NCBI RefSeq assembly: GCF_001705235.1 | Contig: NZ_MCGV01000001.1 | Span: 1,736,001-1,800,000 of the forward strand | DNA from: Clostridium pasteurianum | Lineage (GTDB): Bacteria; Bacillota; Clostridia; Clostridiales; Clostridiaceae | Direction: 5' to 3' | Length of the DNA: 64,000 nucleotides | Shown here: piece after piece, positions 35,599-63,714 of the stretch | Layout of the letters: every line of letters begins with the position of its first letter | Position numbering within the stretch: position 1 is the stretch's first letter | Translations under genes and position numbers: made by a program | Notes under the pieces: model-generated | The model's input: the letters and a program-made list of their open reading frames with translations, nothing else | What the model was told of the DNA's origin: nothing | Database searches by the model: none

Positions 35599-35599
35599 C

Positions 35600-42545: not shown

Positions 42546-42571
42546 ATATACTTCCTCCATTTAAAATACAA

Positions 42572-42817: not shown

Positions 42818-42827
42818 TTACATCCTC

Positions 42828-44762: not shown

Positions 44763-44958
44763 GTAAAACACCTCATGAAATTTTTTTCATTACAATAATA
44801 TCACTTTTCCCCATAACATTCTAGTTTTTTTTAAATAAAATTGATTTACTTAAATTTTGTATTAAATTTTTTTAATAAATTACTTGAATTTTTTTGTATT
44901 TTAATTTAATGTATATTTTAGCATTATATTATACTTAATATACATAGGAGGTAAAATA

Positions 44959-47900: not shown

Positions 47901-48204
47901 TATAGGCGATGAAATATCTTCAGTAGGAAAACATGAATTGATTATTTCAGTTAAAGATAATTACGGCAATAAAACTGTAAAAAAAGTCTATTTTTCTATT
48001 GCATCAGACGGTGGCAGTACAGTATCTTCAAAAATAAACACAATAATTCATAAAATTATTCCAGCTAAAACAAAAAAGGATACTAAAATACTTTATCTTT
48101 TAACAGCTGCTATTTGGGTTGTTATAATATGTGTTGCTGGCGTTATAATATACAAATTTAAAAAGCATAAAAAACCATCTGATAGTGATAGTGAAGATAT
48201 TTAA
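44959..48204 (+). CDS. Large anchored surface protein with Ig-like repeats
   Basis: 1081 residues from a TTG at 44959-44961 with an excellent GGAGG upstream. N-terminal signal peptide (about 1-27, ending TVRA), then about eight beta-rich Ig-like (Big/bacterial-surface type) modules, each ending near F-V-I-D-K-T-[AP]-P or similar, and a C-terminal membrane helix (about 1045-1067) with a basic stop-transfer and acidic tail, without LPxTG. Three 174-residue double modules are near-identical (see repeat entry). It is divergent from the kinase gene, and may be a substrate of the kinase system or an adhesin. Confidence 0.9.
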   Translation: MNYKKITSLILSVAIISSTHSYCTVRADQISNTQNNINQPLNNYDEYDINAPTDGTPLIVNVANNSIYNSSVEPIIKINNISLNVSDIGENKAVHATLNGQPYNLALISKKNNILTLKGDKISQNTVKGQKNTLVIYSKGLNPNGTTSEKTASVNFSIDSEAPSISFSEKNGINIQDGGYYTGQINPVIKLSDNYSIANYSINLNGAPYTGKVSYDKDGNITFEGTPISSDGNYNLSINIKDSAGNTSTFSRTFILDNTAPNISISGINNNDSVNTDVTPKINIEDCSPDIDKTTLDIKKDGVSIPTQLKKNPDGSLYFNVSDEGNYSFSVTAYDKCGHSSTSTPINFVIDKTPPSLNSNFNDNQYFDKPFKPAINTENSSDFISTLTINGNPYLFNNLPFFSDGTYDVEAQGKDNAGNLSEMYHSKFTVDTIAPEINISGINNNDCVNTDVTPKINIDDCNPDIDKTTLDVKKDGVSIPTQLKKNSDGSLYFNVSDEGSYSFSVTAYDKCGHSSTSTPINFVIDKTPPSLNFNFNDGQYFNKPFKPVINTENSSDFISTLIINGKPYSINNLPFFGDGTYDVEAQGKDNAGNLSEMYHLKFTVDTIAPEINISGINNNDYVNTDVTPHINIKDSNLDIDRTVLTVRKDGVVIPVALKQSLDGSLYFNVSAEGSYSFSVTAYDKSGNSSTSTPVNFVIDKTSPLLDFNFIDGQYINKDFKPIVKTKDINDFISTLLVNGNPYLFNDLPYFHDGTYDLEAQGKDRAGNLSALYHLKFIVDTMAPNINVTSLTDNFYYNTSVNPSISVTDANLSYIKMLLNGSDYNLGEITNEGNYQLVIISKDKADNISEKTLTFVIDKTAPSISINGLTDDGVFNYFLNPYVYISDNNPLMSILLLDGHDYHGGLITEDGKHILIVEVVDKAGNVSKKVYKFFIKAVPPDIYVSGVESGKTYKNAITPKISFSKDVVDSYTSITLDGKPYNIGDEISSVGKHELIISVKDNYGNKTVKKVYFSIASDGGSTVSSKINTIIHKIIPAKTKKDTKILYLLTAAIWVVIICVAGVIIYKFKKHKKPSDSDSEDI
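45736..47301 (+). repeat. Three tandem 522-base repeats in the surface-protein gene
   Basis: Units at 45736-46257, 46258-46779 and 46780-47301 are exactly 522 bases each. Units 1 and 2 are nearly identical in DNA, and unit 3 is more diverged. Shared protein text includes NNNDxVNTDVTPxINI, YSFSVTAYDK and DGTYDxEAQGKD. Such tandems expand and contract by recombination. Confidence 0.9.
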
Positions 48205-48291
48205 CTTTAAATTTCATGGAAACTTATTTAAAGGCACTTTTATGTACTAAATAAATCTTTTCATTGAAAAAAACACTTGATATTATTCAAT

Positions 48292-48333
48292 AAAAAAAGT
48301 TCTAAATAACTAACTTATTTAGAACTTTTTTTG
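48292..48333. terminator. Bidirectional terminator
   Basis: Stem AAAAAAAGTTCTAAATAA / TTATTTAGAACTTTTTT with a 5-base loop, with A-run and T-run at the ends. It serves the surface-protein gene and can serve the convergent sugar-kinase gene. The other 270 bases between the genes show nothing else. Confidence 0.88.
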
Positions 48334-48476
48334 TGTGTTTATATTAAAAAATCATGCAAAATACGTGTGTAATCCGATTATGATGATTCCTAATAATCTT
48401 ATTATTTTACTTCTCAATTCATAAAAATTGTAAAGTAAGTTATTATAACTTCTTTTCATCTTTTAGTTTGCATCAC

Positions 48477-49427
48477 TTATTTATTCTCTAAAAACCTTTT
48501 TAATTCTTCATGTGTAGGATATCCATCATTATCTCCAGGTGACATTACCGCCATAGCTCCTATGGCATTTGCTCTTTGAACTGTATCTCTAATGCTCAAA
48601 TTTTCAAGAAGTCCAGTTATTACTCCAACTGCAAATCCATCTCCTGCTCCAACTGTATCTACTACCTTTTTAACTTTAAAACCTTCTAAAACAAATTTTT
48701 CGTCTTTTGATTTAACAAAAGCACCTTTAGAACCAAGCTTTATTATCACAAGCTTTACTCCCCTTTTCAGGTAAAAGTCTGCAATTTCATCTGGATTGTC
48801 ACTACCCATTAAAATTTTCCCCTCATTTACACCTGGAAGTACAATATCACTTCTAAAAGCCATATTATTTAATGTATTAATCATATCTTCTTTATTCTGC
48901 CATAGTGCAGGTCTTAAATTTGGGTCAAAGGTAGTTCGTATATTTTTTCCCTTAGCAAGTTCAAGCAATTTATATGAAACGTCTCTCGTACTTCTCGATA
49001 ATGCCGCAAAAATCCCAGTAAGATGAATATGCCTAACACCATTTAAATCTAACTTTTTCAGATCATCTAAACCAATATTAGAAGCAGCAGAATTTTTTCT
49101 TAAATAAAATGTATCTGGATCACCTTTTGTTACTTTCGATTTAAATTCAACTCCCGTAAAGTACTTATCAGTTGAACCTATATATTCCGTTCCCACGTTT
49201 TCAACTTTAAGACATTCTCTAATAAATTCGCCAAAAGGATCTTTACCAAGTTTAGTTATGTATTGAACTGAATGTCCAAGTCTTGATGTTCCAACAGAAA
49301 CATTAACCTCTGCACCAGCCAAAAACTTCTTAAAATGCGTAGTTTCACTCAATTTTTTATCATTTTCACATTCACCATCGGCAGCAAACACTCCTAAAGG
49401 TTCTCCGATTGTTATAAGCTCACTCAT
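48477..49427 (-). CDS. kdgK: PfkB-family sugar kinase, KDG kinase-like
   Basis: 316 residues of the ribokinase/PfkB family: N-terminal GEPLGVFAADGE and FKKFLAGAEVNVSVGTSRLG (first signature), and the C-terminal VVDTVGAGDGFAVGVITG with the catalytic Asp. The closest remembered match is 2-keto-3-deoxygluconate kinase, giving 2-keto-3-deoxy-6-phosphogluconate in uronate breakdown; fructokinase is the main alternative. No KDPG aldolase or other uronate gene is adjacent. A LacI-type operator lies just upstream, and the LacI gene is next door. ATG after GGAGG. Confidence 0.82.
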   Translation of the reverse strand: MSELITIGEPLGVFAADGECENDKKLSETTHFKKFLAGAEVNVSVGTSRLGHSVQYITKLGKDPFGEFIRECLKVENVGTEYIGSTDKYFTGVEFKSKVTKGDPDTFYLRKNSAASNIGLDDLKKLDLNGVRHIHLTGIFAALSRSTRDVSYKLLELAKGKNIRTTFDPNLRPALWQNKEDMINTLNNMAFRSDIVLPGVNEGKILMGSDNPDEIADFYLKRGVKLVIIKLGSKGAFVKSKDEKFVLEGFKVKKVVDTVGAGDGFAVGVITGLLENLSIRDTVQRANAIGAMAVMSPGDNDGYPTHEELKRFLENK

Positions 49428-49490
49428 ACTACAAACTACCTCCTATCTATAAAATTTTCTCTGTTTAATATAACACTAATACATAAGTTT

Positions 49491-49504
49491 GTAAACCGGT
49501 TTCT
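49491..49504 (-). promoter_or_regulatory. LacI-type operator before the sugar kinase gene
   Basis: Perfect 10-base palindrome AAACCGGTTT (49493-49502), the usual form of a LacI-family site, 64 bases upstream of the kinase start. A related site lies before the regulator gene. Confidence 0.75.
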
Positions 49505-49593
49505 AAAAATCATATAACTAAATTGCAGTAGTTTCAATAACTAGCACAACTTAGTTTAGCATAAAAAATCACTTAAATAATTTAAAACGCAAA

Positions 49594-50622
49594 CTACATA
49601 TTTAAAGGTATTGTGGAGCCCCTTATTTCTAATTTTGAACTTAACTGTTTATGGATAGTTCCTAGTGTGCTCTCATTTTCAAGTCTATCTATCAAAACCT
49701 TTGCCGATTCGTATCCCATTTCATATGATGGTTGAGAAATAGTCGTAATACCTGGAGATATAAGAGAAGCCCATCCCCAATTATCATAACCGCAAATTCC
49801 CAAATCCTTTGGAATGCTTATATTTAATTTATTAATTGCACTTAACGTATTTAAAAGAACAACTCCATTAACTGCAAATATAGCTTTTTTTCCGCTGTAA
49901 TTATTTAAGAACTTGCATAAACTTATTTCTAAATTCCCAGTCTTACTATAATCTACAATAGAGACATTATAATTTTCATCTTTAAGCCTTTTTCTGCAAA
50001 CCTCCAAAAATGCCATTTCTCTTTCACGTCTTGGTGTAACATTGTCTATTCTCTCATTAAAAAAGCACAAACTATCAAATCCAGCATCTATAAGATAATT
50101 AGTAGTTTCAACTGTCATATCATAATTGTTACTTGTAACAGAATCAAAACTTTCATTTGCCAAAGTTCTATCTACCATTACTACTGGTATTCCACTGTTT
50201 TTAATATTCAATAGAAGTTCTTCATTATAACCTGTGCCATTTACTATGATACCTTCTACCCTTTGATCCATCATAGATTTAATATAATCTTCTTCTTCTT
50301 TTGCGTCATTATCAGAATTTGAAATAAGCATATTATATCCTTTAGCTTTGCACATATCTCCAATGCCCTTAATCATAATAGACGAAAAAGGATTGGTTAA
50401 ATCAGCTATAATAACACCAACTAATCTACTTTTATTTGATTTTAAACTTCTAGCTATATTATTAGGTCTATAATTAAGTTCTTTTATTGATTTTTCTATT
50501 CTAGCTCTGGTTTTTTCCGACATATATTCGAACTTACCATTTAGATATCTTGATATAGTTGCTTTAGATACCCCAGCTAATTTTGCCACATCGCTTATTA
50601 CAACCTTTTTATTTTCTTCCAT
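49594..50622 (-). CDS. kdgR: LacI-family transcriptional repressor
   Basis: 342 residues. N-terminal helix-turn-helix ISDVAKLAGVSKATISRYLNG and hinge helix ELNYRPNNIARSLKS, then a periplasmic-binding-protein-like effector domain (VGVIIADLTNPFSSIMIKG ... GYDNWGWASLISPGITTISQP). Lies directly upstream of the kinase and probably controls it and itself, since similar operators precede both. The effector is probably a keto-deoxy sugar acid, if the kinase assignment holds. ATG after GGGTGG. Confidence 0.9.
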   Translation of the reverse strand: MEENKKVVISDVAKLAGVSKATISRYLNGKFEYMSEKTRARIEKSIKELNYRPNNIARSLKSNKSRLVGVIIADLTNPFSSIMIKGIGDMCKAKGYNMLISNSDNDAKEEEDYIKSMMDQRVEGIIVNGTGYNEELLLNIKNSGIPVVMVDRTLANESFDSVTSNNYDMTVETTNYLIDAGFDSLCFFNERIDNVTPRREREMAFLEVCRKRLKDENYNVSIVDYSKTGNLEISLCKFLNNYSGKKAIFAVNGVVLLNTLSAINKLNISIPKDLGICGYDNWGWASLISPGITTISQPSYEMGYESAKVLIDRLENESTLGTIHKQLSSKLEIRGSTIPLNM

Positions 50623-50636
50623 GTTTTACCACCCTT

Positions 50637-50650
50637 AGTAACTGGTTTCT
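50637..50650 (-). promoter_or_regulatory. LacI-type operator before the regulator gene
   Basis: AGTAACTGGTTTCT, core TAACTGGTTT (50639-50648), matches the AAACCGGTTT operator at 8 of 10 bases. Close to the regulator's ribosome site, so autoregulation is likely. Confidence 0.65.
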
Positions 50651-50812
50651 TAAAAATATCATACTATTATTATGATGAGTTATCAATATGTTGATTCAAC
50701 TTTCAATTTATAACATGTTTAAATCAGTGAAAAGCTGCACCCCCAAGAAAATTTTAATATAACTTTTATCGCATTTCCACTTAATCAAACTATAACATTA
50801 AATTTATTATAA

Positions 50813-52999
50813 TCAAGATATCACCTTAACATCTTGGCTACTAATCATTGCTTGTCTGCACCATAATTCAAAATAGTATCCCCTAAACGATAATAATTCT
50901 TCATGTGTTCCATGTTCAATTATTTCACCATTTTTAAACACAAAAATTTTATCGCACTTAACAACATTACACAACCTATGGGCAATAATTATTCTAGTAT
51001 TATTGATATTATAAGTTTCTAATTCCTTCTCTATTTCTATCTCTGTTATAGAATCCAAATTAGATGTAGCTTCATCCATAATTAATATCTCTGGATTTCT
51101 TAAAATAGCTTTAGCAATAGATAATCTTTGCCGCTGTCCTGCTGATAGATTAGAAGCATTTTCTTGAAGCATAGTTCCATATTTGTATGGTAAACTATCT
51201 ATGTAATCATCCATTCGAACAATCTTGCATACTTTAACTATTTCATCAAATTCGACTCCCGGCTTAACAAACTCAAAATTTTCTCTTATTGTACCTGAAA
51301 AGAAAAAGGATTCTTGCGATACATAAGCTACTTTATCCCTTAAAATCTGCTTATCTATGTTTTTCAGATTATATGAATTTATGCTTATCTCACCATTTTC
51401 TATATCATAAAAGCCCATTAATAGCTTTGCAATTGTTGTTTTGCCTGATCCACTTTCTCCTACAAAACCTACCTTCTCTCCTGCTTTTATTTCAAAGTTT
51501 AAATTATTTAATATCTTTTTCTTTATACCATATCTAAAATCAACATTTTTAAATTTAATTTCACCTAAAAGTGATGTAATAGTTGTACTTTCATTTGCTA
51601 CCTTCTCCTCACCTACTTCCAACACTTCAAATAGTCTATCTGATGCAACCATAGCACTTTGTATTTGTGATTGTAGTCCCGTTAATCTTTCTATTGGTCC
51701 AATAAAATATGTTAATAGTGCACTATAGCTTATTAGTGTTCCAATAGTAATCTGCTTACTTAATACTTCAACAACCCCAACCCATAGAACTATCACAGTA
51801 AATATTGGTGATATACTATCTTTAATACTTGATTGCAAATTATTAATATACCCAAATTTCAACATATTCTCTAAGACTTTCGAGAATCTTCCTTCTGATT
51901 CCTCAGTAGCTGTATTTTCTCCATTTACCGCCTTTACCATTTCCATTCCTTCTAAAGACTCAACTAAATATGAATAAAACCTTGCATTGCTTTCCATTAA
52001 CTTATGGTTCCCGTTCTCTAAAGGATTTTTAAAAAAAATTATAATCAATAAATATGCCACAAGTGGAATAAAAGATATAAAAAATAATTCTTTATTAAAA
52101 CTATAAAGAATTATCGTCCCGCCTATAACCATAATGGAGTCAATCATTACTGTTATAGTTACAGATGAAATCATATCCCTTATTTTAGTTGCATCATTAA
52201 ATCTAGAAACTATTTCTCCAACTCCTCTTGTTCTATAAAAATTCATAGGCAACCTAATAACATGTTTGTAAAAACCCATTAGTATAGATTTATCTAAATT
52301 CTGTGTCACCTTAAGTACTAGTACTGATCGCATAAATTCTGTTATAGCTTTAAATACAAGAAGAGCTATAACACCTAATGATATCAATAATAAACCGTTC
52401 CTTGATTTTCCATTAGCTACATTATCCACTATAAATTTGTAATAAAAAGTTCCAACAAGACCTAATAGTGTCGTAAATAATGATGCCATGAATATACTTA
52501 TAAAAAACTTTTTTTGTGTTTTTATGAGTTGTAAATATCCCTTAATTACAATATTATCTGATTTTTGTGGTTTAAATTCCTTGGTTGGTACGAAAGTAAT
52601 AAGTATCCCTTTCCATATATCAAAAAATTCTTTCAAACTACATTTCACTATTCCCCTTGCAGGATCAGCTATTACTACAGTATCTTTTCTAACCTCATGA
52701 ATAACAACATAATGTTGTAGTCTATTTTTTGTTACATGAGCTATGGCAGGCTTAGGAAAATTTTTTTTAATATCATCATAATTTTTTAATCTTACTGCTT
52801 TACTCTTTAAATTTAGCTTTTCACCTGCCTTGATTAACCCTAAAACTGTAGTTCCGCCTTTATCTGTTCCTGCAAATTTTCTTATTTTTGATATACGTAT
52901 GTCTGCACCATATTCCTTAGCCACTGTTGCCAAGCAGGCTGCTCCACAGTCGCTTGAATCATGTTGTCTCACACAAATATATTTTTTAAATATTTTCAT
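50813..52999 (-). CDS. lanT: Peptidase C39 ABC exporter for a Gly-Gly leader peptide
   Basis: 728 residues, the standard length for bifunctional exporters. Peptidase C39 domain (1-150): Cys18 in DSSDCGAACLA, His near 95 in HYVVIHEV and Asp near 112 in IADPARG. Six-helix membrane domain (about 160-440). ATPase: Walker A GESGSGKTTIAKLL (about 515), signature LSAGQRQRLSIAKA, Walker B ILIMDEATSNLDS, and H-loop AHRL. It should cut the 55-residue precursor after its Gly-Gly and export the core. Last gene of the cluster, 25 bases after lanB; ATG after AAAGGAG. Confidence 0.95.
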   Translation of the reverse strand: MKIFKKYICVRQHDSSDCGAACLATVAKEYGADIRISKIRKFAGTDKGGTTVLGLIKAGEKLNLKSKAVRLKNYDDIKKNFPKPAIAHVTKNRLQHYVVIHEVRKDTVVIADPARGIVKCSLKEFFDIWKGILITFVPTKEFKPQKSDNIVIKGYLQLIKTQKKFFISIFMASLFTTLLGLVGTFYYKFIVDNVANGKSRNGLLLISLGVIALLVFKAITEFMRSVLVLKVTQNLDKSILMGFYKHVIRLPMNFYRTRGVGEIVSRFNDATKIRDMISSVTITVMIDSIMVIGGTIILYSFNKELFFISFIPLVAYLLIIIFFKNPLENGNHKLMESNARFYSYLVESLEGMEMVKAVNGENTATEESEGRFSKVLENMLKFGYINNLQSSIKDSISPIFTVIVLWVGVVEVLSKQITIGTLISYSALLTYFIGPIERLTGLQSQIQSAMVASDRLFEVLEVGEEKVANESTTITSLLGEIKFKNVDFRYGIKKKILNNLNFEIKAGEKVGFVGESGSGKTTIAKLLMGFYDIENGEISINSYNLKNIDKQILRDKVAYVSQESFFFSGTIRENFEFVKPGVEFDEIVKVCKIVRMDDYIDSLPYKYGTMLQENASNLSAGQRQRLSIAKAILRNPEILIMDEATSNLDSITEIEIEKELETYNINNTRIIIAHRLCNVVKCDKIFVFKNGEIIEHGTHEELLSFRGYYFELWCRQAMISSQDVKVIS

Positions 53000-53024
53000 A
53001 TAAAAAATCTCCTTTAAAGACCTT

Positions 53025-56000
53025 TTAGCTTACAATTATTTTATTTTTCTTAATATATCTTAATGCATACAATGCATGTCTAGTAAATGCTCTTACTTTG
53101 TTCTCTTGTTCTTTATCAATACCATATAACCTATTACAGAACATGTGAATTAAGCTCATGAGTATATCAAACTTAGAGTTAGTAAGTTCTCCTCTTTCAT
53201 CAATTTCATTAAGCAGCTCACCAAACTTAATAACAGAATCCTTTCTAATGTTTAGCATAGAATATACTAATTCTCCGCTATTATCTTTCCTCAGATTAGA
53301 CCATTCATTGTCACAATTAAATAAATCTACATATCGCCTTCTGTTAGCTGAAAATTCTTTTCTCATAAAATCCTTATTAATAATACAATTAAAAATAGCT
53401 AATTGTGTGTCATATTTAATTCCAATTAAATTCATCAAATTTATCACATTACATACGGCAAATTCCGTCTCATCAAACTTTAATTGCTTATTTTTAGTTA
53501 ACCTAAAGAATTCAGATATAATTATTGAGTGAGTTTCAAATACCTCCTCTGCAGAATCTATGAGTTTTTCTCCTCCATACCGTTCTATTTCTCTTTCATA
53601 TTCATCCAATACAATCTTATCAGCTAATTTTTTTTGCTTAAGTTCATATCTTAAAATGCTTATTTCTTTTAATACCTCTATGTAATTATTTAAAGCACAA
53701 ATATTTAGCCTTAATCTTATATGATCCTTATCATTTCTATATCTGATGTAAAACCATTTTTTTATTAAACCTTTCTTCTCTAAATGCACTATGAACTTGT
53801 TTAATTCTATTCCTAACAATTCATTTGCACGTTCAATATTATTATAAATTTTTAAATATATCCAATTACTTAGTATTCCAAAACTTCTAACTTCTGGTTT
53901 AACATTATTTATTCTTAGCTTTTTGTAATTACTCTTAGTTGGATATACTCTATTAATCATGCTATCAAATTTTTCATTTGGAATTGTTGCTTGAGTATTC
54001 TTAACAAATTGAAACACAAATTCATTAGTATAATATTTCTTATTATTACTTAACCATTTACTTGTTAAATCTGCCGCTTGCAAAATTATAGAATTATCTT
54101 CCTTTTTAAATTCGTCAAACAATATCTGTTTAAACTTATCCACAGATAAATCAATTAGCAAAAGTAAATCTGAATTTTTTATATATACTAAATCAGGCAT
54201 CATATACTTATTTCTAAATTCTTCCAAGAATCTTGTAAACTCACCATAAGTTATATTTGTTGACTTAAACTTAGATTTATATATCCTCCACGTTCTATCA
54301 ACAAGAATTGTATTTTTATATCTAATCCTAGGCATATATTCAATTTCTTGAGACTTAACATAACTTATGAATGAAAATGGCGACAATACTTCATTTCCAT
54401 CACTTATATCTCTCATTAATTTAGTTACTTTGTTTAATTTTGAAGCATTTAACATATGGTTAGTAGTTACTTTTATTTTTTTATCATACTTCTTGCTTTT
54501 CAAATATAAATTTTCCTCATCAAGGCCAATATAAATATCACTTATATCTATATTTTTTACTGTACTATCCATAACAGTATTAGCGGCATTAACTTGAAAA
54601 TCTCTAAAATTTTTAGTAACTGATACATTTGTCAACCTTGGATTAATATCCAAATTAAATAGCTCACATTGAATAAATTCATTGTCCACTAATGCATTTT
54701 CTTTTTTCTTAATATTTTTATACATTAATTTGCTATCATCCAACAAATCTGAAAATCTTCCTAAACTTTTTCCTGCCCCTGAAGAACCTAAATTAGCTCC
54801 AATCCTTAATCTATATTTTCCCTTCATTAGCTGAGAAATATCTTTTGAAATCACAGAGCAATACATCTCCATTGAAATTGGTAACTTCCTAGTATCAATA
54901 TTTTTATTGCCATATATTTCAATATCCTCTTCTGTAAATACTGCATCATCACCACTACTAATTGCATTTATAATTTTCTGTTTGATAAAATTATTCTTTA
55001 AAAGCTCATCAGATATATATCTATAATCATTTTCCCCATCATCGCACTCATATCCTATGCCAAACGTTGGATCCATTACTTCCAATATTGGTATTTCTCT
55101 ATACTGTCCATACTTTTCAATAAACTCATTTTTAAACCTGTCTAAACTATCATTAGAATGAAATTTCTTAGCAAATGCTACTAAGAAATTACTAACATCT
55201 ATTACTTCTCTTCTAATATTTTCATCCAATGATATTTCAAACGGATTAGTTGCATCAACCTGAATTAATGATTTAGCATCCACTACTACTTTTTTCATTA
55301 AAATCTCTATCTCATTTAATGTACTTGTTCCACTTTCTTTACCTAACTTGTTATATTTATTAATTAATGAACTTATCTTTTTTAATTCCTGTAATTTATC
55401 ACATTTTATATTATTTGATTCTATTCTACTGATTACATATTCTAATGTATTAAATTCACTTAGAGGCGGCCTTAATTCTGTATATATGTATTCATTTTTT
55501 ATTAATTGAACTAAAAACTTATCTATAACCTCACTTTGTATGTTTATATTTTTATATTTATAAGCATTTAAAATATCTTCATACTTTGCACCATTTCTTA
55601 AAAGACTTAGTATAAAAATAACATTAGGAGTATTATTAATGTAGCATGCTTGTCCAATTCTTCTTACCTTATCATTAAAATTGAAGCATGTAAGCATTTG
55701 ATTTTTTACCTTATTACCATACTTTTCAATAAGTTTACTAGAATATAATGTTAACTTTTTATATCCTTCATATTTTACCTCAATCTCTTTTATAAGTTTA
55801 GATAACCATTCGTAATCTACTCTCATTCTTTTTTTTATATTTTTTTCGTTATAAGCTACTCTAGACTTTTCTCCAAATCTACCAATAGATACTCCTGAAA
55901 ATAATCCAAATGGAGTTGTTCTTGTCATAATTCTGCTATAATACTTCATAATAGATTTTATGACCTTATCATTAAATCTTTTTTTATCAATACTTTCATA

Positions 56001-56162
56001 TAAACTAGTACTAGCTACTTTTATAGCTTCCCTAAAACTTTCTTGTGCTATAATATTCTTAATATGGTTCATATCTCCAATGTTTGTACAATTATTGAAT
56101 GATAATGTAGGCACCCTTGTAATAAATTCATCTAATACATCATAATAATCTTCCTTATTCAC
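53025..56162 (-). CDS. lanB: Full-length class I lanthipeptide dehydratase
   Basis: 1045 residues, the usual LanB length (about 1000). The N-terminal glutamylation domain (1-720) has TRTTPFGLFSGVSIGRFG (about residue 82) and the later NPRLTNVSVTKNFRDF region. The C-terminal elimination domain (about 740-1045, SpaB_C type) has WFYIRYRNDKDHIRLRLN (about 805-822). LanB transfers glutamate from tRNA to Ser/Thr hydroxyls and eliminates it to form dehydroamino acids. GTG start at 56160-56162 after AGAAGGTGG. Located between the GT2 and exporter genes with 12 and 25-base gaps. Confidence 0.95.
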   Translation of the reverse strand: MNKEDYYDVLDEFITRVPTLSFNNCTNIGDMNHIKNIIAQESFREAIKVASTSLYESIDKKRFNDKVIKSIMKYYSRIMTRTTPFGLFSGVSIGRFGEKSRVAYNEKNIKKRMRVDYEWLSKLIKEIEVKYEGYKKLTLYSSKLIEKYGNKVKNQMLTCFNFNDKVRRIGQACYINNTPNVIFILSLLRNGAKYEDILNAYKYKNINIQSEVIDKFLVQLIKNEYIYTELRPPLSEFNTLEYVISRIESNNIKCDKLQELKKISSLINKYNKLGKESGTSTLNEIEILMKKVVVDAKSLIQVDATNPFEISLDENIRREVIDVSNFLVAFAKKFHSNDSLDRFKNEFIEKYGQYREIPILEVMDPTFGIGYECDDGENDYRYISDELLKNNFIKQKIINAISSGDDAVFTEEDIEIYGNKNIDTRKLPISMEMYCSVISKDISQLMKGKYRLRIGANLGSSGAGKSLGRFSDLLDDSKLMYKNIKKKENALVDNEFIQCELFNLDINPRLTNVSVTKNFRDFQVNAANTVMDSTVKNIDISDIYIGLDEENLYLKSKKYDKKIKVTTNHMLNASKLNKVTKLMRDISDGNEVLSPFSFISYVKSQEIEYMPRIRYKNTILVDRTWRIYKSKFKSTNITYGEFTRFLEEFRNKYMMPDLVYIKNSDLLLLIDLSVDKFKQILFDEFKKEDNSIILQAADLTSKWLSNNKKYYTNEFVFQFVKNTQATIPNEKFDSMINRVYPTKSNYKKLRINNVKPEVRSFGILSNWIYLKIYNNIERANELLGIELNKFIVHLEKKGLIKKWFYIRYRNDKDHIRLRLNICALNNYIEVLKEISILRYELKQKKLADKIVLDEYEREIERYGGEKLIDSAEEVFETHSIIISEFFRLTKNKQLKFDETEFAVCNVINLMNLIGIKYDTQLAIFNCIINKDFMRKEFSANRRRYVDLFNCDNEWSNLRKDNSGELVYSMLNIRKDSVIKFGELLNEIDERGELTNSKFDILMSLIHMFCNRLYGIDKEQENKVRAFTRHALYALRYIKKNKIIVS

Positions 56163-56174
56163 AAATACCACCTT

Positions 56175-57056
56175 CTATTTTTCTAAATACTTATATTCCT
56201 TGAGAAAATTATTAATATTATTTGTATCTATATAAATATATGCTAAAGTTTGAAGCAACTTATATTTATTATGAATGTATCTTCTCTTCCTTATTTGCTC
56301 CCTGTATGCCAAAAATGGATTTTTATTAAAATTATTAATTTTTTCATGAGGATAATGAATTGCTACAGCATTCCTATTTAATTTATAAATTCCCTCATTA
56401 ACATATAAATTTATTCCTAAGTCTGTATCTTCTCCTCCCCATGTATTAAACCATTCATCAAAGCCACCACAAGATTTTAAAAATTTTCTTTTAACTGATA
56501 CATTTACAGTCCAAAATACAGTCCACGGTGCTTCCCATAATTTCAAATAATCACCCAAATAATGATACATTTGTTCCCTTACATCATATACTTTAGCTTC
56601 TTTAAGTTCTTCTATACTTCCACTTATATTATTTCTATCATATCTTTTCAAAATAGCTTCTTTTTTATCATCATTAAACTGACTAAAGCCCAAAGCATAC
56701 CCAATAACCACATCTTTTTCACTTGTATATGTATTAATATGTTCTTGAATAAAATTTTCCGCTACTATACATCCAGAATCAATAAAAATGCAAATATCTC
56801 CATTAGCATTTTCAATTCCAATATTTCTAGCTTTGGCAGCTCTAAAACCTTTATCTTCTTGATAAAAATACTTTATATTTAAACTATTATTAAACGAATT
56901 AGCTATCTCCCTTGTATCATCACTTGATCCATCATCACATATTATGACTTCAAAATTTTTATTGTTGATATTTTGTTTTTTTAAACTATATAAAGTCTCG
57001 TATAGCAAATTTGATCTGTTATATGTAGGTATAATAACTGAAGCCAAATAACTCAT
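56175..57056 (-). CDS. GT2-family glycosyltransferase in the lanthipeptide cluster
   Basis: 293 residues from the ATG at 57054-57056 (GGAGG 5 bases upstream; GTG at 57068 would swallow it). GT-A fold: VIIPTYNRSNLL, ICDDGSSDDTRE, a nucleotide-sugar metal motif F-I-D-S-G, and a C-terminal galactosyltransferase-like signature SCGGFDEWFNTWGGEDTDLG. No membrane segment, so a cytosolic soluble enzyme. Operonic position right after the precursor suggests it glycosylates the peptide, as SunS-type GT2 enzymes do for glycocins. It could alternatively modify a lipid or wall component. Confidence 0.88.
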   Translation of the reverse strand: MSYLASVIIPTYNRSNLLYETLYSLKKQNINNKNFEVIICDDGSSDDTREIANSFNNSLNIKYFYQEDKGFRAAKARNIGIENANGDICIFIDSGCIVAENFIQEHINTYTSEKDVVIGYALGFSQFNDDKKEAILKRYDRNNISGSIEELKEAKVYDVREQMYHYLGDYLKLWEAPWTVFWTVNVSVKRKFLKSCGGFDEWFNTWGGEDTDLGINLYVNEGIYKLNRNAVAIHYPHEKINNFNKNPFLAYREQIRKRRYIHNKYKLLQTLAYIYIDTNNINNFLKEYKYLEK

Positions 57057-57086
57057 TCTATCCTCCACAATTTCATAAAGTGTTAC

Positions 57087-57114
57087 GGGACAAAAGAATT
57101 TATTCTTTTGTCCC
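57087..57114 (-). terminator. Perfect hairpin between the precursor and GT2 genes
   Basis: A perfect 12-bp stem GGGACAAAAGAA / TTCTTTTGTCCC with a 4-base loop. No T-run follows on the minus strand, so it is more likely a partial terminator or an mRNA-end stabiliser that raises precursor over enzyme levels, as is common in bacteriocin operons. Confidence 0.75.
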
Positions 57115-57147
57115 TAATAAAATTTTAATAATTATATCAATTATTTT

Positions 57148-57315
57148 TTAGTAGCACCATGTATCCCCAGTACAGTAACTACTATAAGTATGTGCAGCTG
57201 AATGTGTGCTATCACCATATCCACCTACTATGTTTATTTTCTCATTGTCTGTAAGCTCAGTTCCTAATTCAAAATCAAGGTCTAGCTCCATTTCCATTAA
57301 ATCTTTTTTATTCAT
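57148..57315 (-). CDS. lanA: Lanthipeptide precursor with double-glycine leader (55 aa)
   Basis: ATG at 57313-57315 with AGGAGGTAAG just upstream; TAA at 57148. Residues 1-32 are an acidic leader (EMELDLDFELGTELTDNE, a box like the class I F-N-L-D motif, ending I-N-I-V-G-G). Residues 33-55 are the core: YGDSTHSAAHTY then SSYCTGDTWCY. The core has two Cys (48, 54) and eight Ser/Thr, enough for two (methyl)lanthionine rings plus free dehydro residues or sugar sites. It lies between lanC and the GT2 gene. It is too short for common gene callers. Confidence 0.9.
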   Translation of the reverse strand: MNKKDLMEMELDLDFELGTELTDNEKINIVGGYGDSTHSAAHTYSSYCTGDTWCY

Positions 57316-57376
57316 TGTCTTACCTCCTGAAAATTTAATATTTATATAAATAACAACTAAAAGTTATTACTATATA

Positions 57377-58657
57377 CTATTTAATACACATTATTTTAGA
57401 TACCAAGTTTCTGTTCTTATCACTATAATTTATCAATGAAAAAATAATCCCTATAATTCCATCTAAAATACCTATATTATTTTGAGCTAAATTCACTTTA
57501 TCTTCTTTAAAATTTAAAATCTCATCCATTCTAATGTCTTTGACAATTTTATCTGCAATTATATCTGAGGTTTCCTTAAATAAGCCTACATCTGTATCTG
57601 CATACATTTCATTTAATACTAATAAAATACTTGAATAACCATGGCATAAGCTGTAACCATTTACATCGGCGTTATTAATATTCCTACAAAAATCTGATAA
57701 AATATTTATAGCTACATCCTTATACTTTTTTTCATCTAATGCTTGTCCTGCTAAATATATTGCTCTTGTAATTCCTGATGTTCCATAACACCAACCATAT
57801 TTATTATAATTAACGCCTTTAGTATTATTTAAATAGTCTTCTATTCCTAAAATACCCGGCCAGTAACTTATTTTCCCGTCTACAATCATAAATTGATTAA
57901 ATTTATTTAAGAGCGTTTCTATACTTTTTTCTATTCCTTCGACTTTTATTCTATTTGATAATGCTATAGATAATACACTTAATATACCTGCTATACCATG
58001 TGCAGCTCCAAAATCAACAAAACCATTAGGACATCTTTTACTTCTTCCAGAATCTCTTACTTTATCTGCTCTAATATAATAATTAGGATACTTTGAATTA
58101 TTAGTCTTAGTTATTTCTATTAAATATGAAATAATTTCATTTATTAAATCCTTAAATATACTTAGATTCTTAAATTCTAATAAATACCTAAGTGATGATG
58201 ATAATCCTTCAATTACATCATAGTCTGAATAGTGGACCTTGTTGCTTTTAATATTATTTTTTGCACTTTCAAGCTTTTTTTCTAATACTATTTTTACTCT
58301 TCTATTTACAGAATTAAGTGCTTTTTCTACATTAACTCCATATTTAGATAGATATAAAAGCATATACCCTATTCCACAATATCCGTTCAAAATTCCTGAA
58401 CCTTGATTTAAATATGGCTCACTAACATATAAATTGCTTCTAAATCTTTTTATGTATTCTTTTAATGCCTTATTCCAATTTAGATCATTATTTAATTCTC
58501 TAGCTTCTAATATGTAAAATATTATCTCTGGATATCCTGAACATAAGAAAAAAACATTCCATGTTTTACATTTTTCAATTTTATCTTCAAACATATCAAC
58601 ATCGATTATTAATTTTGAGAATTCTCTAATCAAATCGTTAACTTCCCCACTATACAT
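57377..58657 (-). CDS. lanC: Lanthionine cyclase LanC
   Basis: 426 residues from the ATG at 58655-58657 (GAGGTG upstream; the longer frame overlaps the previous gene). LanC-like alpha toroid with the zinc ligands: AHGIAG (about 220), W-C-Y-G-T-S-G (about 285), and S-L-C-H-G-Y (about 337). It adds Cys thiols to dehydroalanine/dehydrobutyrine made by LanB to close lanthionine rings. 16 bases after the GT1-like gene and 61 before the precursor. Confidence 0.95.
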   Translation of the reverse strand: MYSGEVNDLIREFSKLIIDVDMFEDKIEKCKTWNVFFLCSGYPEIIFYILEARELNNDLNWNKALKEYIKRFRSNLYVSEPYLNQGSGILNGYCGIGYMLLYLSKYGVNVEKALNSVNRRVKIVLEKKLESAKNNIKSNKVHYSDYDVIEGLSSSLRYLLEFKNLSIFKDLINEIISYLIEITKTNNSKYPNYYIRADKVRDSGRSKRCPNGFVDFGAAHGIAGILSVLSIALSNRIKVEGIEKSIETLLNKFNQFMIVDGKISYWPGILGIEDYLNNTKGVNYNKYGWCYGTSGITRAIYLAGQALDEKKYKDVAINILSDFCRNINNADVNGYSLCHGYSSILLVLNEMYADTDVGLFKETSDIIADKIVKDIRMDEILNFKEDKVNLAQNNIGILDGIIGIIFSLINYSDKNRNLVSKIMCIK

Positions 58658-58673
58658 TCTGAAGCACCTCTTT

Positions 58674-59927
58674 TTATACGTTAATAAGTATGTCATTTAA
58701 AATTTTTTCTATATCTTTAGACTTTTGAAAATTTCTTTTGACTTTCTGTAAATTGCTCTTATACATTTGATCATTAATTAATATATTAATATAATTTAAT
58801 AACGATTCTTTATCTATGTCATCAGTCTTGATAACTTCTCCAATACCTAATTCCTTTATCTTATATGCATTAACTGCTTGATCGTTAATAATTGGTCTCA
58901 CCATCATAGGAACTAGGTTATGTACAGCCTCACAAACACTGTTATATCCTCCAGCTGTTATAAACAAATCAGCCCTCTCTAAAATTTTTTGCTGATTTAT
59001 CATATCTCTTACTAATACATTCTGTGGAAATTTTTTGTTATAGTTATTACTTAAATTTGGAACTGAAATAATTAAGTTATAATTTGTTCTACGCACAGTA
59101 TTAATTACGATATTATAAAACTTGTTACTAGCCCTTATGGTAGATCCCGTTGCAAAATAAATTAATTTTTCTTTACTATCAATAAATTCCTGCAATCTCA
59201 CGTCATGACCTAAATCCTGACACATATTTCTTAATAATGGTTTTGCAACTATGTATTCTTTATTATTAAATTTACCATCCGGCTGTATTAAACTGCCTCC
59301 AAAGGATATATTTATATCATCTTCACCATCTACTACATGAACAGGATTTATATATGGCACTTCCAATTCTTCACTGTTTTTTATATGCCTATTTATTATT
59401 CTAGAATAAAAACCACTTTCTTTTATTCCCTTTACTTTCGTAAAATCAACTGAATTAAATAATCCAAATAACTTCACCGGATCACTCTTAACATCCTCAT
59501 TAAGCATTGTAATTAAACAATTAATTCCTACTGTTCTTTTTTTCAATTTACTTGCAACTATTTTTCCATTTACAGCAGCATTATCTCTAAAAATAATATT
59601 AGGCAAAATCATTTTAACTTTTTCCAAATCATATTCAGCCATTTCCTTAAACATCTCTAATAACTTTCTATTAAATACACTGCTCCTATTAACAATATCT
59701 TCTACTGTAAATTTAGGTCTTGTCTCATTTTTATAAATATCCTCTAAATTTTTTCTAATATCTTTATATTGAAAAAATTTAATACCCATGTTTTCTATAG
59801 CCTGTCTATACTCTTCAAATCCAAAATAATATACTCTAACATCATTTCTAATAATATTTTCTAATATGGATAAGCTTTCATTGAAATTACTTTTAGCTTT
59901 CCATCCAAAAAAAACTATCTTTTTCAA
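58674..59927 (-). CDS. GT1-like (UDP-glycosyltransferase/MGT) enzyme, first gene of the lan cluster
   Basis: 417 residues, TTG start at 59925-59927 after GGAGGGG. GT-B fold of the GT1 type: IVFFGWKAKSNFNESLS at the N-terminus (G-H-x-x-P-like place), and donor-binding motif TAGGYNSVCEAVHNLVPM ... QAVNAYKIKELGIG near residue 345. Such enzymes move UDP-sugars to small acceptors. First in the operon with lanC and lanB, so probably part of the peptide's modification. Lack of the normal histidine cannot be judged without alignment. Confidence 0.85.
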   Translation of the reverse strand: MKKIVFFGWKAKSNFNESLSILENIIRNDVRVYYFGFEEYRQAIENMGIKFFQYKDIRKNLEDIYKNETRPKFTVEDIVNRSSVFNRKLLEMFKEMAEYDLEKVKMILPNIIFRDNAAVNGKIVASKLKKRTVGINCLITMLNEDVKSDPVKLFGLFNSVDFTKVKGIKESGFYSRIINRHIKNSEELEVPYINPVHVVDGEDDINISFGGSLIQPDGKFNNKEYIVAKPLLRNMCQDLGHDVRLQEFIDSKEKLIYFATGSTIRASNKFYNIVINTVRRTNYNLIISVPNLSNNYNKKFPQNVLVRDMINQQKILERADLFITAGGYNSVCEAVHNLVPMMVRPIINDQAVNAYKIKELGIGEVIKTDDIDKESLLNYINILINDQMYKSNLQKVKRNFQKSKDIEKILNDILINV

Positions 59928-59984
59928 TTTTGCCCCTCCAATATTCCATAATATATTTTTTATTACATTAATTCCTTTAATTGT

Positions 59985-60013
59985 ATTGTAAACCTTTTCT
60001 TATCCATTGTAAA
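59985..60013 (-). promoter_or_regulatory. Direct repeats with 21-base period upstream of the lan cluster
   Basis: On the minus strand TTTACAAT occurs at 60006-60013 and again at 59985-59992, exactly 21 bases apart. Direct repeats about 9 bases long on a 21-base period are the usual binding form of LytTR-type regulators (AgrA, ComE, PlnC) that control bacteriocin operons. A -10-like TATATT/TATTAT lies about 30 bases downstream. No such regulator is encoded in the window. Confidence 0.5.
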
Positions 60014-60057
60014 GTTTATTTTACTAATTTATTTAAATAATTTATCAAACTACGGGA

Positions 60058-60092
60058 AATAAACCCCAGATATACTATATCTAGGGTTTATT
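60058..60092 (-). terminator. Terminator of the 92-residue protein gene
   Basis: Stem of about 15 bp with one mismatch (AATAAACCC-AGATA with TATCT-GGGTTTATT) around a 4-6 base loop, just beyond the stop. It separates the PTS region from the lan cluster. Confidence 0.8.
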
Positions 60093-60104
60093 ATGTCTCA
60101 ATCA

Positions 60105-60383
60105 TTATTTATTTAACCTTTTCACAAACTCGTTAACATCCGTTATTTTTAAAGCTTCCTTTTTAGGTAAAGCTCTATCTGCTACTCCATTTGACATTTT
60201 AAGCTTTACATTTAATGGCTGAGATCCTTTATCTGCTTTTAAGTCCTCACAAAATTTAGTGTATTTTTCCTGTTCCGTTCCTTCATATGGACAATCCTTA
60301 TAATTAAAATAATCTGTAGAATAAGTATATTCTATTTTAAATTCTTCTACATTACCAACAACTTTTATTTTAAATAATTTCAT
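60105..60383 (-). CDS. Small protein of unknown function next to the cellobiose PTS operon
   Basis: 92 residues, mildly basic, cytosolic, beginning MKLFKIKVVGNVEEFKIEYTY. Two cysteines (KDCPYEGT and KFCEDLK). The sequence looks like an alpha/beta fold. A good AGGGGG site precedes the ATG. It lies after the terminator of the PTS operon and before the lan cluster, so it has its own transcript. Not recognised, no function assigned. Confidence 0.6.
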   Translation of the reverse strand: MKLFKIKVVGNVEEFKIEYTYSTDYFNYKDCPYEGTEQEKYTKFCEDLKADKGSQPLNVKLKMSNGVADRALPKKEALKITDVNEFVKRLNK

Positions 60384-60410
60384 TTATAAACCCCCTGTGT
60401 ACAAAACATA

Positions 60411-60449
60411 AAGTTAACCCAACAATCAAGTTTAAAAGTCGGGTTAACT
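60411..60449 (-). terminator. Terminator of the cellobiose PTS operon
   Basis: Stem AGTTAACCCG-type, arms 60411-60420 and 60440-60449, with a 19-base loop, followed by TTTATGTTTTG. Just upstream of the 92-residue gene. Confidence 0.6.
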
Positions 60450-60518
60450 TGTAAAATTTCTATAGTTAAACCTTATTCACATATGTTTAACTGAAGCAAC
60501 TATATTATTAGTATTCTT

Positions 60519-61877
60519 CTATTCTTCTTCAGCATCACCATTTAATTCTTCTTCAGCATACTGTTTATCAAGTACTTTGAAGAATGGGAAATATATTACT
60601 GATGCTAATAGTATTATTACAATTTGAAGTACTGCACCTTGCCAACCGGCAACTAAAAATCCTGATATTATCGGCGGCGTCGTCCATGCAACCTGAACAT
60701 TTGTAAAGCAAGGTACCAGACCAACATACATAGAAAGATAAGTAAGAATTCCTGACATTACTGGGACAATTACAAATGGTATAAACATAAGTGGATTTAA
60801 TACTACTGGAAGACCAAATAAAACTGGCTCATTAATATTAAATATTCCTGGAATTAATGCTAATTTACCTAATTGTTTTAAACGCTGTGATCTCGCAAAT
60901 AATACACATGCTACAACAAAGCCTATAGTTATTCCTGAACCAGTCATTGTTAAGAAGTTATCTTGGAACTGCTGACATACTATGTGAGCATTTTTTCCAG
61001 CTCCTGAAGCTATTAATTTAGCACCAGTTTTAGCAACTTCACCATTTGCAAGTGTGTTTGCTTGATATATTGAATTCATAACACCACCAATAAGAGTAGC
61101 ACCATGAACACCAAACCACCAGAAGAAAGATATAACAAATGGTATTACTATTGCTCCGCCAAATGAATCTGTAATTCCCTGTAATGGAATCTGCAATACT
61201 TTATAAATCCATTCAAGTGCAGTTCCACCAGTAACAACACTGAAGAAAATGTATACGAGCATAGCTACTACCATAATGACAGCACCTGGTATTAAAGCTG
61301 AGAAAGCATTTGAAACTCCAGCTGGTACACTCTCAGGAAGTTTGATTCTTATATCATGGTTTAAGAACCATGAATAAGTATATCCAACGAGTACACCAAT
61401 AATCAAAGCGGCTATCATTCCTTTACCACCGGTCCAACCCTTATCAATAGAAGCTGTTACATTAATTGGATTCTTTAATACTAAAGAACCATATTTAGTT
61501 CCTGCTTTAACAAATGTGTATCCTGGCATGATAATTAAAAAAGTTACTAGTCCGAGAAGTCCAGAAGTAACACCATCCTGTCCTTCATTTTTTGCATATT
61601 GAGAAGCTATACCTATTACTGCCGCAAGTGCCAATATATCAAAAGTTGAACTTGAAACTTGAGTTAATGGTACTGACCAGTTTGCTCCAAATATTCCTGC
61701 CATCCAGCTGTTCCATCCAGGAATTGGGAAGTTAGCTATCAATAAAAATATTGATCCAATAAGAGTTAATGGCATTGTAATTATAATACCATCTTTAATT
61801 GCCGTAATGATTTTTGAATTTGCAAATTTCATTATCGGCGGAATAATTTTTTCTTGAATAGTATCTACTTTACTCAT
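60519..61877 (-). CDS. celB: PTS lactose/cellobiose-family enzyme IIC
   Basis: 452 residues with eight to ten membrane segments. Typical IIC text: EKIIPPIMKFANSKIITAIKDG at the N-terminus, PGIFNINEPVLFGLPVVLNP (sugar-binding loop), and WTTPPIISGFLVAGWQG near the end. Cytoplasmic tail is acidic. It forms the uptake channel with the IIA and IIB proteins encoded upstream, probably for a beta-glucoside such as cellobiose, since a GH1 gene is in the operon. ATG after GGAGGA. Confidence 0.94.
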   Translation of the reverse strand: MSKVDTIQEKIIPPIMKFANSKIITAIKDGIIITMPLTLIGSIFLLIANFPIPGWNSWMAGIFGANWSVPLTQVSSSTFDILALAAVIGIASQYAKNEGQDGVTSGLLGLVTFLIIMPGYTFVKAGTKYGSLVLKNPINVTASIDKGWTGGKGMIAALIIGVLVGYTYSWFLNHDIRIKLPESVPAGVSNAFSALIPGAVIMVVAMLVYIFFSVVTGGTALEWIYKVLQIPLQGITDSFGGAIVIPFVISFFWWFGVHGATLIGGVMNSIYQANTLANGEVAKTGAKLIASGAGKNAHIVCQQFQDNFLTMTGSGITIGFVVACVLFARSQRLKQLGKLALIPGIFNINEPVLFGLPVVLNPLMFIPFVIVPVMSGILTYLSMYVGLVPCFTNVQVAWTTPPIISGFLVAGWQGAVLQIVIILLASVIYFPFFKVLDKQYAEEELNGDAEEE

Positions 61878-61940
61878 TATTATAATTCCTCCTCATATTT
61901 TTTATCTAGTATATATAAATATTAATTATGTCCCATTTAA

Positions 61941-63347
61941 TTATATATTCTCTCCTCGTTCCTTAATTACATTTTTGTACCAATAAAATGATAATTTTTT
62001 CTTTCTATCCAAATTATGCTTATGATCTACATATATGAAACCATACTGCTTTTTATATCCATTAAGCCAACTTAGAAGGTCAATTACTGACCAAGCATAA
62101 TAGCCTTTTACATTTATGCCTTCACTTATTGCCTGCTTTAGTGCTTTTAAGTGAGCTTCTATGAACTTAATTCTAGGCATATCTAAAATTTCATCTTCTA
62201 CAATTAGGTCCTTATCCCCTAGACCGTTTTCAGTAATATAAAGCTTAACATCCCCATATTCAGCTTTTAGTTTCTTAAGTCCCTCAACTAATGATTCAGG
62301 TGATATTTCCCATCCCCATTTGGTGTATACCTTATCATCCATTTTTACTGTTTTATAGAATCCATCAAATGACGGATTTCCTGGTGCTCCTGTCGAATTT
62401 TCCCTTGTCCTTTTAAATTCCCCTGTGTCATGATTTTTAATTACTCTCTGTGGTTGATAATAGTTAAGTCCCATGAAATCATTCATCGGTGCTGCTTTCT
62501 TTAATATAGCTAATTCATCATCAGTCCAATCAGGAAGCCATCCTTTTTTCTCAATGTTTTTGATTACATATTCAGGATATTTTCCCTTTAGTACTGGATC
62601 ATAGTACCATGCAATTTCATATTGATTTGCATGATGAGCAGCTGCCTTATTTTCTTCTTTATCATCAACACTAAATGCTGGAGAAAATACATTTGTAATT
62701 CCTATTTCTCCATACTGTTTTAGTTTTTTATACTCAATAACAGATTTTGCATGGGCAACAAATACATTATGAGTTGCCTCGAAATACTTTTTAACATCAC
62801 CTGATATCCCTGGAGGGTGAGCCCCTGATATATATCCATTAGTACAAAATACTATAGTTTCATTAAACGTAATCCAATGCTTAACCCTATCGCCGAATGA
62901 TTCAAAACATGTCTTAGCATAATCTACAAAGGCATCAATAGTTTCCTTATTTATCCAACCACCTTTTTCCTGTAATGCTTGAGGCATATCCCAGTGATAC
63001 AATGTAACAAAAGGAACAATTCCATATTTTAAACATTCATCAATTAGATTGTTATAAAATTCAAGTCCTTTTTTGTTAACCTTTCCATCGCCATTAGGTA
63101 TTATCCTTGGCCATGAAACAGAAAATCTATATGAATCGAGCCCCATTTCCGCCATCAACTTTACATCTTCTTTATATCTATGGTAATGATCTATTGCAAC
63201 ATCTCCATTAGTACCTTCAAAAGTTTTACCGGGTATTTTAGTAAATACGTCCCAGTTAGATACTCCCTTCCCATCTTCATTCCATGCACCTTCTACCTGG
63301 TATGAAGCAGATGCAGCACCTAAAAAGAAATCTCTTGGAAATTTCAT
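61941..63347 (-). CDS. bglA: 6-phospho-beta-glucosidase (GH1)
   Basis: 468 residues, the usual GH1 length. Acid/base Glu in W-I-T-F-N-E-T, nucleophile in L-Y-I-T-E-N-G-L-G, N-terminal signature FPRDFFLGAASASYQVEGAW. The operon with a PTS argues for phospho-beta-glucosides as substrates, cleaving cellobiose 6-phosphate to glucose and glucose 6-phosphate. Symbol is by analogy. It lies between IIB and IIC genes with 37-63 base gaps; ATG after AAGGAGG. Confidence 0.95.
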   Translation of the reverse strand: MKFPRDFFLGAASASYQVEGAWNEDGKGVSNWDVFTKIPGKTFEGTNGDVAIDHYHRYKEDVKLMAEMGLDSYRFSVSWPRIIPNGDGKVNKKGLEFYNNLIDECLKYGIVPFVTLYHWDMPQALQEKGGWINKETIDAFVDYAKTCFESFGDRVKHWITFNETIVFCTNGYISGAHPPGISGDVKKYFEATHNVFVAHAKSVIEYKKLKQYGEIGITNVFSPAFSVDDKEENKAAAHHANQYEIAWYYDPVLKGKYPEYVIKNIEKKGWLPDWTDDELAILKKAAPMNDFMGLNYYQPQRVIKNHDTGEFKRTRENSTGAPGNPSFDGFYKTVKMDDKVYTKWGWEISPESLVEGLKKLKAEYGDVKLYITENGLGDKDLIVEDEILDMPRIKFIEAHLKALKQAISEGINVKGYYAWSVIDLLSWLNGYKKQYGFIYVDHKHNLDRKKKLSFYWYKNVIKERGENI

Positions 63348-63384
63348 TTTATGCCTCCTTAAACTATATTATCTATAAGTAATT

Positions 63385-63696: not shown

Positions 63697-63714
63697 TTCT
63701 ATTCCCCCTAGTTT

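Follow-up and report, generated by a model that had tools for sequence, protein, structure and literature searches.

NAI-112 (class III) and cacaoidin (class V) are lanthipeptides that carry sugars, N-linked to tryptophan in the former and attached to tyrosine in the latter (accessible text of PMC10373908 and PMC8358304), and the glycocins, that is, sublancin and its relatives, are peptides glycosylated by glycosyltransferases, in some cases with a C39 exporter (accessible text of PMC10885120 and PMC9576775). Among class I lanthipeptides, precursors from Bacteroidetes have leaders that end in Gly-Gly, and a C39 protease is often found in the respective clusters (main text of PMC7268733 where, supplements aside, the word "glycosyltransferase" occurs once, with regard to class IV); in the maddinglicin system, an FxLx box in the leader is important for binding by MadC (accessible text of PMC9889658). 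Here we consider a six-gene segment of a 64,000-nucleotide stretch of the Clostridium pasteurianum genome (hereafter, the window), in which a class I dehydratase (LanB) and cyclase (LanC) are encoded together with a precursor peptide, a C39 exporter and two proteins of glycosyltransferase type, one of family 2 (GT2) and one related to family 1 (GT1), referred to below as the UDPGT-like protein. A literature search returned no report of a glycosylated class I lanthipeptide or of a class I cluster with both a glycosyltransferase and a C39 exporter, which, with most subscription journals outside the search, does not show that none exists.

Like the nisin and maddinglicin (MadA/MadB/MadC of Clostridium maddingley) systems, the window cluster pairs LanB with LanC; unlike these systems, it has a double-glycine leader and two glycosyltransferase-like genes, and no gene for a LanP protease, for immunity (LanI/LanFEG type) or for a regulator was seen among the open reading frames (ORFs) of the segment. 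With NAI-112 and cacaoidin it would share the combination of a lanthipeptide pathway and sugar tailoring, but the lanthionine synthetases and the classes are different; from the glycocins it is set apart by the presence of LanB and LanC and by a GT2 to which SunS is less close than chondroitin polymerase and other glycosyltransferases are. Whereas the Bacteroidetes leaders follow the pattern LxLxKx5L (main text of PMC7268733), the window precursor has LDLDFEL, in a clostridial host and with glycosyltransferase genes in the operon. The original prediction had considered a C39 exporter and a double-glycine leader atypical of class I: the association itself is supported by domains, catalytic residues and gene order, but, given the Bacteroidetes precedent in the main text of that paper, it is unusual for the phylum of the window rather than new.

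All six genes are present, as had been predicted, and run in one direction on the minus strand at 59927-50813, in the transcription order UDPGT-like protein, LanC, precursor, GT2, LanB and C39-ABC exporter, with Pfam matches well above cut-off (UDPGT; LANC_like; Glycos_transf_2; Lant_dehydr_N and Lant_dehydr_C; Peptidase_C39, ABC_membrane and ABC_tran). We argue, with a probability of roughly 0.6, that they constitute an operon for a class I lanthipeptide that would contain two rings, be sugar-tailored mainly by GT2 and be freed of its leader by the exporter. The class I assignment of the original prediction stands on the domains, the catalytic residues and the conserved gene order; the glycosylation that it also proposed is plausible, given a GT2 within a conserved operon.

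The lanthionine-forming part of the system appears intact. LanB is of full length, with both domains, and the NisB residues R14, R83, R87, T89, D121, D299, R464, R786 and R826 are kept in it as R19, R80, R84, T86, D119, D306, R472, R821 and R864; H1009 stands for NisB H961, a match made via the 5ehk row (the NisB rows end before H961). We take these, in the NisB numbering assumed here, to be the residues of glutamylation and elimination. In LanC, the residues H220, C290, C338 and H339, presumably the active-site histidine and the Cys-Cys-His zinc ligands, are invariant in three aligned LanCs and align with those of NisC and MadC. The nearest solved relatives are 9g04 for LanB and 8byk for LanC, followed by NisB and NisC; 8byk we take to be MadC of Clostridium maddingley and 9g04 to be MadB, a name consistent with PMC12241602. 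The formation of lanthionines by LanB and LanC is thus a well-supported prediction. The exporter, in turn, shows the features of a peptidase-containing ABC transporter (PCAT), namely, an N-terminal C39 domain fused to an ABC exporter and a double-glycine leader on the putative substrate, and its nearest solved structure is the bacteriocin transporter 4ry2 (1.7e-203, query residues 4-715). When the six proteins were run through PADLOC, the exporter alone was matched, by one model (mad3) and over part of the ABC region. A class II cluster was rejected because none of the ORFs in the segment encodes a LanM.

An identically ordered set of these six genes is found in another genus, in a genome that matches Clostridium sp. 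C8-1-8 (locus L020). Sequence identities in BLAST between the two clusters are 53% for the UDPGT-like protein, 43% for LanC, 59% for the precursor, 64%, the highest of these values, for GT2, 50% for LanB and 62% for the exporter. In the congener G160 (locus L128), the flanks are syntenic and the cluster is absent: the alignment covers window positions 48497-49427, 49597-50669, 60119-60396 and 60528-64000 and nothing in between, with identities of 69-92% on the side of the beta-glucoside phosphotransferase system (PTS), which includes a 92-amino-acid gene, and of 71-78% on the LacI/sugar-kinase side. With the alignment interrupted between 50669 and 60119, the variable segment consists of the six genes and little else; its place in G160 is taken by two genes for pyridoxal-phosphate enzymes of Cys/Met metabolism and by smaller genes, so that the interval between the PTS and LacI/sugar-kinase genes (window 50670-60118) holds different cargo in the two congeners. 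For this empty-site comparison, G160 is the one usable congener: the LacI homologue of G161 is located close to the end of a contig, and a close homologue is lacking in G162. Because the six-gene order recurs in C8-1-8 and syntenic flanks enclose other genes in the congener, the arrangement goes beyond chance, and the segment is a genuine operon and a self-contained unit.

The precursor follows the same distribution. Among the 206 genomes of the family, it is clearly matched in two, both of which carry the six-gene cluster, the one match other than the query itself having an E-value of 8.4e-33 and the next best one of 0.03; it matched no Pfam family. Its sequence reads MNKKDLMEMELDLDFELGTELTDNEKINIVGG/YGDSTHSAAHTYSSYCTGDTWCY, where the slash marks the expected cut, and the leader ends in ...LTDNEKINIVGG, a double-glycine site. 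The core, 23 residues long, contains eight Ser/Thr and two Cys, and its calculated [M+H]+ is 2575.98 when unmodified, 2539.96 after two dehydrations and 2431.89 after eight, to which any hexose would add 162.05; the core of C8-1-8, KTLAKHTYSDYCVPGGYCG, is 19 residues long and has two Cys and three Ser/Thr only. Between the two precursors, 24 of 32 leader residues are identical versus 8 of the 19 aligned core residues, the common core pattern being HTYSxYC...C; as a Thr, a Ser and two Cys are conserved in both cores, two rings are suggested. The acidic LDLDFEL of the leader is not FNLD but resembles the FxLx/FNLD box in a looser form. The coordinates are collected in Table 1.

Table 1. Features of the lanthipeptide segment (positions refer to the window)
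Feature	Position	Strand	Basis or remark
UDPGT-like (GT1/GT-B) protein, 417 amino acids, TTG start	58674..59927	-	N14 and A325 at the GT1 His positions
LanC cyclase, 426 amino acids, likely start 58657	57377..58657	-	Pfam LANC_like 5.8e-50 on the longer 58696 ORF
Precursor peptide, 55 amino acids; leader residues 1-32 ending in GG, core YGDSTHSAAHTYSSYCTGDTWCY	57148..57315	-	sequence
Hairpin with 12-bp stem, directly 3' of the precursor gene	57087..57114	-	fold z -4.96
GT2 glycosyltransferase, 293 amino acids, likely start 57056	56175..57056	-	Pfam Glycos_transf_2
Full-length LanB dehydratase, 1048 amino acids, GTG start	53025..56171	-	Pfam Lant_dehydr_N 3.1e-119, Lant_dehydr_C 1.1e-50
C39 peptidase-ABC exporter, PCAT type, 728 amino acids	50813..52999	-	Pfam Peptidase_C39 6.3e-38; NCBIfam TIGR01193 653 bits, cut-off 524
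Whole variable segment	50670..60118	.	same flanks around other genes in congener G160 (L128)

Two start sites were revised: ATG 58657 is a likelier start of LanC than the longest-ORF start 58696, and ATG 57056 a likelier start of GT2 than 57068, because each is preceded by a ribosome-binding-like GAGG or GGAGG. The hairpin that follows the precursor gene has a similar, aligned counterpart in the C8-1-8 cluster (fold z of -3.26 there) and would suit a partial block that holds the precursor mRNA above the enzyme mRNA. The terminator scan listed no terminators, this hairpin included; Rfam gave no match at the gathering score in 46000-64000, and the promoter scan, with 64 sites versus 74.3 expected in shuffles, is not usable as support.

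A third system, in another genome of the family (G109; locus L022, 2643-14478), comprises two similar precursor candidates, LanB, LanC, a C39 exporter, an HlyD-type partner, a UDPGT and a gene of the FMN-reductase family. It resembles the window in having LanB, LanC, a C39 exporter, a UDPGT and double-glycine precursor candidates, both of which carry FNLD and GG within one leader; it differs in that no GT2 was matched in 19.9 kb and in its HlyD-type and FMN-reductase genes, as well as in the active-site histidines of its UDPGT (see below). Homologous proteins of about 370 amino acids, 39% identical, are encoded in both C8-1-8 (L020, 13349-14461) and L022 (15747-16862), the latter being weakly DltD/SGNH-like; in C8-1-8, this gene overlaps the end of the C39 exporter gene, and no counterpart was seen in the window cluster.

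LanB itself is uncommon. Within the family, it was matched at E <= 1e-10 in 16 of the 206 genomes, that of the window included; at E <= 1e-20, it was found in 5 of 391 genomes sampled from the class, 4 of 398 sampled from the phylum and, in two more samples, 2 of 43 and 4 of 148 (query genome or centre counted). At 3 of 15 Clostridiaceae LanB loci (the window, L020 and L022), both the C39 domain and a UDPGT are present, at the other 12 neither is, and GT2 is found in the window and L020 only, as judged by blastp with the domains of the window itself at E <= 1e-6, which could miss very distant versions. These 15 loci are the window and L020-L033, a 112-amino-acid fragment in G167 having been left out; at L028, the second LanB has about 600 bases of downstream flank, and L033 begins near a contig end. 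Such a complete co-occurrence would arise by chance with a probability of 1/455, or of 1/91 without the window, which had been chosen for it; computed by hand for loci that are not independent, these values are a guide only. Outside the family, neither C39, UDPGT nor GT2 was matched at 10 LanB loci (L063, L065-L068, L135-L137 and, on plasmids, L114 and L115), a check that leaves out the G553 and G984 contigs. A scan of genome contigs with the LanB pair gave one locus, the C8-1-8 cluster, two short patterns being no census. No LanB relative was confirmed on viral contigs; among 50,697 phage records, two distant and nearly full-length LanB matches with 25-27% identity were found, MN270279 and MG543995, labelled as Streptococcus and Staphylococcus phages.

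The biosynthesis can be envisaged as follows. The LDLDFEL stretch of the leader would serve as the box for binding of LanB and LanC, and LanB would dehydrate core Ser/Thr residues using glutamyl-tRNA. LanC would then close up to two (methyl)lanthionine rings, for which the Thr and Ser of HTYS, together with the two conserved Cys, are the best candidates. Both enzymes would act first, on the leader-bound peptide, and the sugar would, most likely, be added to the modified core thereafter, by GT2 and possibly at the conserved Tyr or at a leftover Ser/Thr. Finally, the C39 domain of the exporter would cut after GG during export, which would make a LanP unnecessary. One leader would thereby serve two recognition systems, LanB/LanC and the C39 peptidase, as is most evident in L022, where FNLD and GG are combined in each candidate leader. 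Any antibacterial activity of the product would likewise be presumptive.

Of the two presumed glycosyltransferases of the original prediction, GT2 holds as a working candidate; the UDPGT-like protein may be a non-canonical enzyme or a non-catalytic partner. At two positions, which we take to be those of the GT1 catalytic histidine near the N-terminus and of the histidine that binds the donor phosphate, it has Asn (N14) and Ala (A325), and the UDPGT of C8-1-8 shows both changes too. In contrast, both histidines are present in 28 of 28 other UDPGTs compared (27 distinct), that of L022 included; apart from L022, the set includes all but one of 28 further matches, the exception being the third G202 match, which gave no locus. 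Mere decay is unlikely because the sequence is 52% conserved between the window and C8-1-8, in both halves, and is modelled with a GT-B fold. The UDPGTs from the three lanthipeptide clusters form one group (100/100), with the L022 row on a long branch. Thus, what is new here is that the UDPGTs of both six-gene clusters lack the GT1 histidines although fold and sequence are conserved. Such a protein would either transfer sugar in a non-standard way or act as a peptide- or sugar-binding partner. A more specific and rather doubtful proposal is that of a two-component peptide glycosyltransferase, in which a catalytically dead GT-B subunit grips the lanthipeptide or the sugar donor and presents it to the catalytic GT2; L022, in which a UDPGT with both histidines stands without a GT2, would then resemble an older, one-enzyme state.

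As for GT2, it keeps D41, D93 and the E209-D210 (ED) motif, that is, most of the expected GT-A catalytic residues, including the donor-binding Asp. Its best-ranked fold match is chondroitin polymerase, and it is nearest in both sequence and fold to polysaccharide-extending enzymes. SunS matches it at E 8e-6, ranking 38th of 80 solved-structure matches by sequence, and is not among the best 50 fold matches listed, which excludes nothing. The enzyme is not specifically of the glycocin type with which the sugar dimension had been compared, and its assignment as a SunS-type glycocin enzyme is not favored. The plasmid relatives of GT2 lie in small-molecule-like operons. Among the three clostridial relatives at 47-48% identity, two (L060 and L062) are found beside radical-SAM genes, to which a GHMP kinase is added in one case, and L060 and L061 lie near genes for HAD-type phosphatases; the three loci look like a small operon type of clostridia. 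Given these neighborhoods, the acceptor cannot be read from homology.

The alternatives differ from the proposed scheme mainly in the role of the sugar enzymes. The unlikely, but most serious, one is that a class I lanthipeptide is made and exported as proposed but is not tailored by the relatives of sugar enzymes, which would protect the producer, for example, by modifying a target or by inactivating the product intracellularly, or would function at the cell surface. Several observations would fit: the UDPGT-like protein belongs to a macrolide-type family that includes self-immunity enzymes (the NCBIfam families MGT and OleI match it, both below cut-off, and YojK is the best-ranked fold match of its predicted model), an immunity gene of the LanI/LanFEG type was not seen among the ORFs of the segment, and the GT2 relatives occur in small-molecule-like operons. 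However, the arrangement of both sugar genes around the precursor within the operon is shared by two genera, and the UDPGT-like protein lacks the very histidines on which a standard inactivating GT1 would rely. The latter change, present in both clusters, at the catalytic and donor-binding positions alike, also makes it improbable that both glycosyltransferases are active in turn, one adding a first sugar and the other extending it to a disaccharide, even though two separate glycosyltransferase genes are conserved together and GT2 is nearest to polysaccharide extenders. That the product is a plain class I lanthipeptide accompanied by functionless leftovers, as the loss of the GT1 histidines could suggest, is highly improbable because functionless genes would decay, yet the frames are of full length and, between the two clusters, the UDPGT-like protein (52%) and GT2 (64%) are no less conserved than LanB (50%) and LanC (44%).

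The scheme of a class I lanthipeptide tailored mainly by GT2 and released by the exporter has to be weighed, in its turn, against several observations. There is no known product, and only two genomes show the six-gene architecture. The UDPGT-like protein does not have the histidines of an active GT1 at either position. GT2 has DxG in place of DxD, a feature of all seven nearest relatives compared, with DxD in six more distant ones, and its relatives at 36-48% identity lie in surroundings reminiscent of small-molecule or sugar metabolism, not beside lanthipeptide genes. The LanB of L022 is not grouped with those of the window and C8-1-8 (0% of 200 bootstrap trees, in a tree without the broken or split LanBs of L030, L032, L067 and L068). 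Finally, the exporter may have a second client, since a LanM-type gene with no C39 match nearby is found 1.4 Mb away.

Descent of the C39 and UDPGT set as a single inherited module is, then, unsupported by the LanB tree (0/200), though the three UDPGTs group together; as the L022 LanB stands apart from the other two, the set may have more than one origin. With regard to the LanM-type genes, the genome has two DUF4135 matches, about 1.4 and 0.4 Mb from the cluster. The former (L140, 8010-15707, at about 3.196 Mb) includes a 988-amino-acid DUF4135 protein, an FMN-reductase gene and ABC genes; no LANC_like match to this protein was found at E 1e-5, nor any C39-domain match in the vicinity. The latter is located near 2.197 Mb.

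Elsewhere in the window, the minus strand at 33350-44771 encodes a 1525-amino-acid protein with FHA and FtsK/SpoIIIE ATPase domains and a PP2C phosphatase (Pfam) and, by eye, an FHA-type protein, a Ser/Thr kinase and several TPR proteins; we take this region to be a type VII secretion-like locus. It is adjoined, on the plus strand at 44959-48204, by the gene for a 1081-amino-acid protein that consists of bacterial Ig-like repeats (Big_13 and relatives).

If the proposed scheme is correct, the operon would yield a sugar-bearing class I lanthipeptide, formed via the best-studied route to lanthionine but exported and matured in the class II way, and a single leader would have to serve LanB/LanC and the C39 peptidase at once. 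The cluster of the second genus, with a core of 19 residues and three Ser/Thr, would make ring and sugar sites easy to map. The histidine-less UDPGT, in turn, would make it possible to test directly whether the fold of a glycosyltransferase can be reused as a helper in peptide glycosylation.

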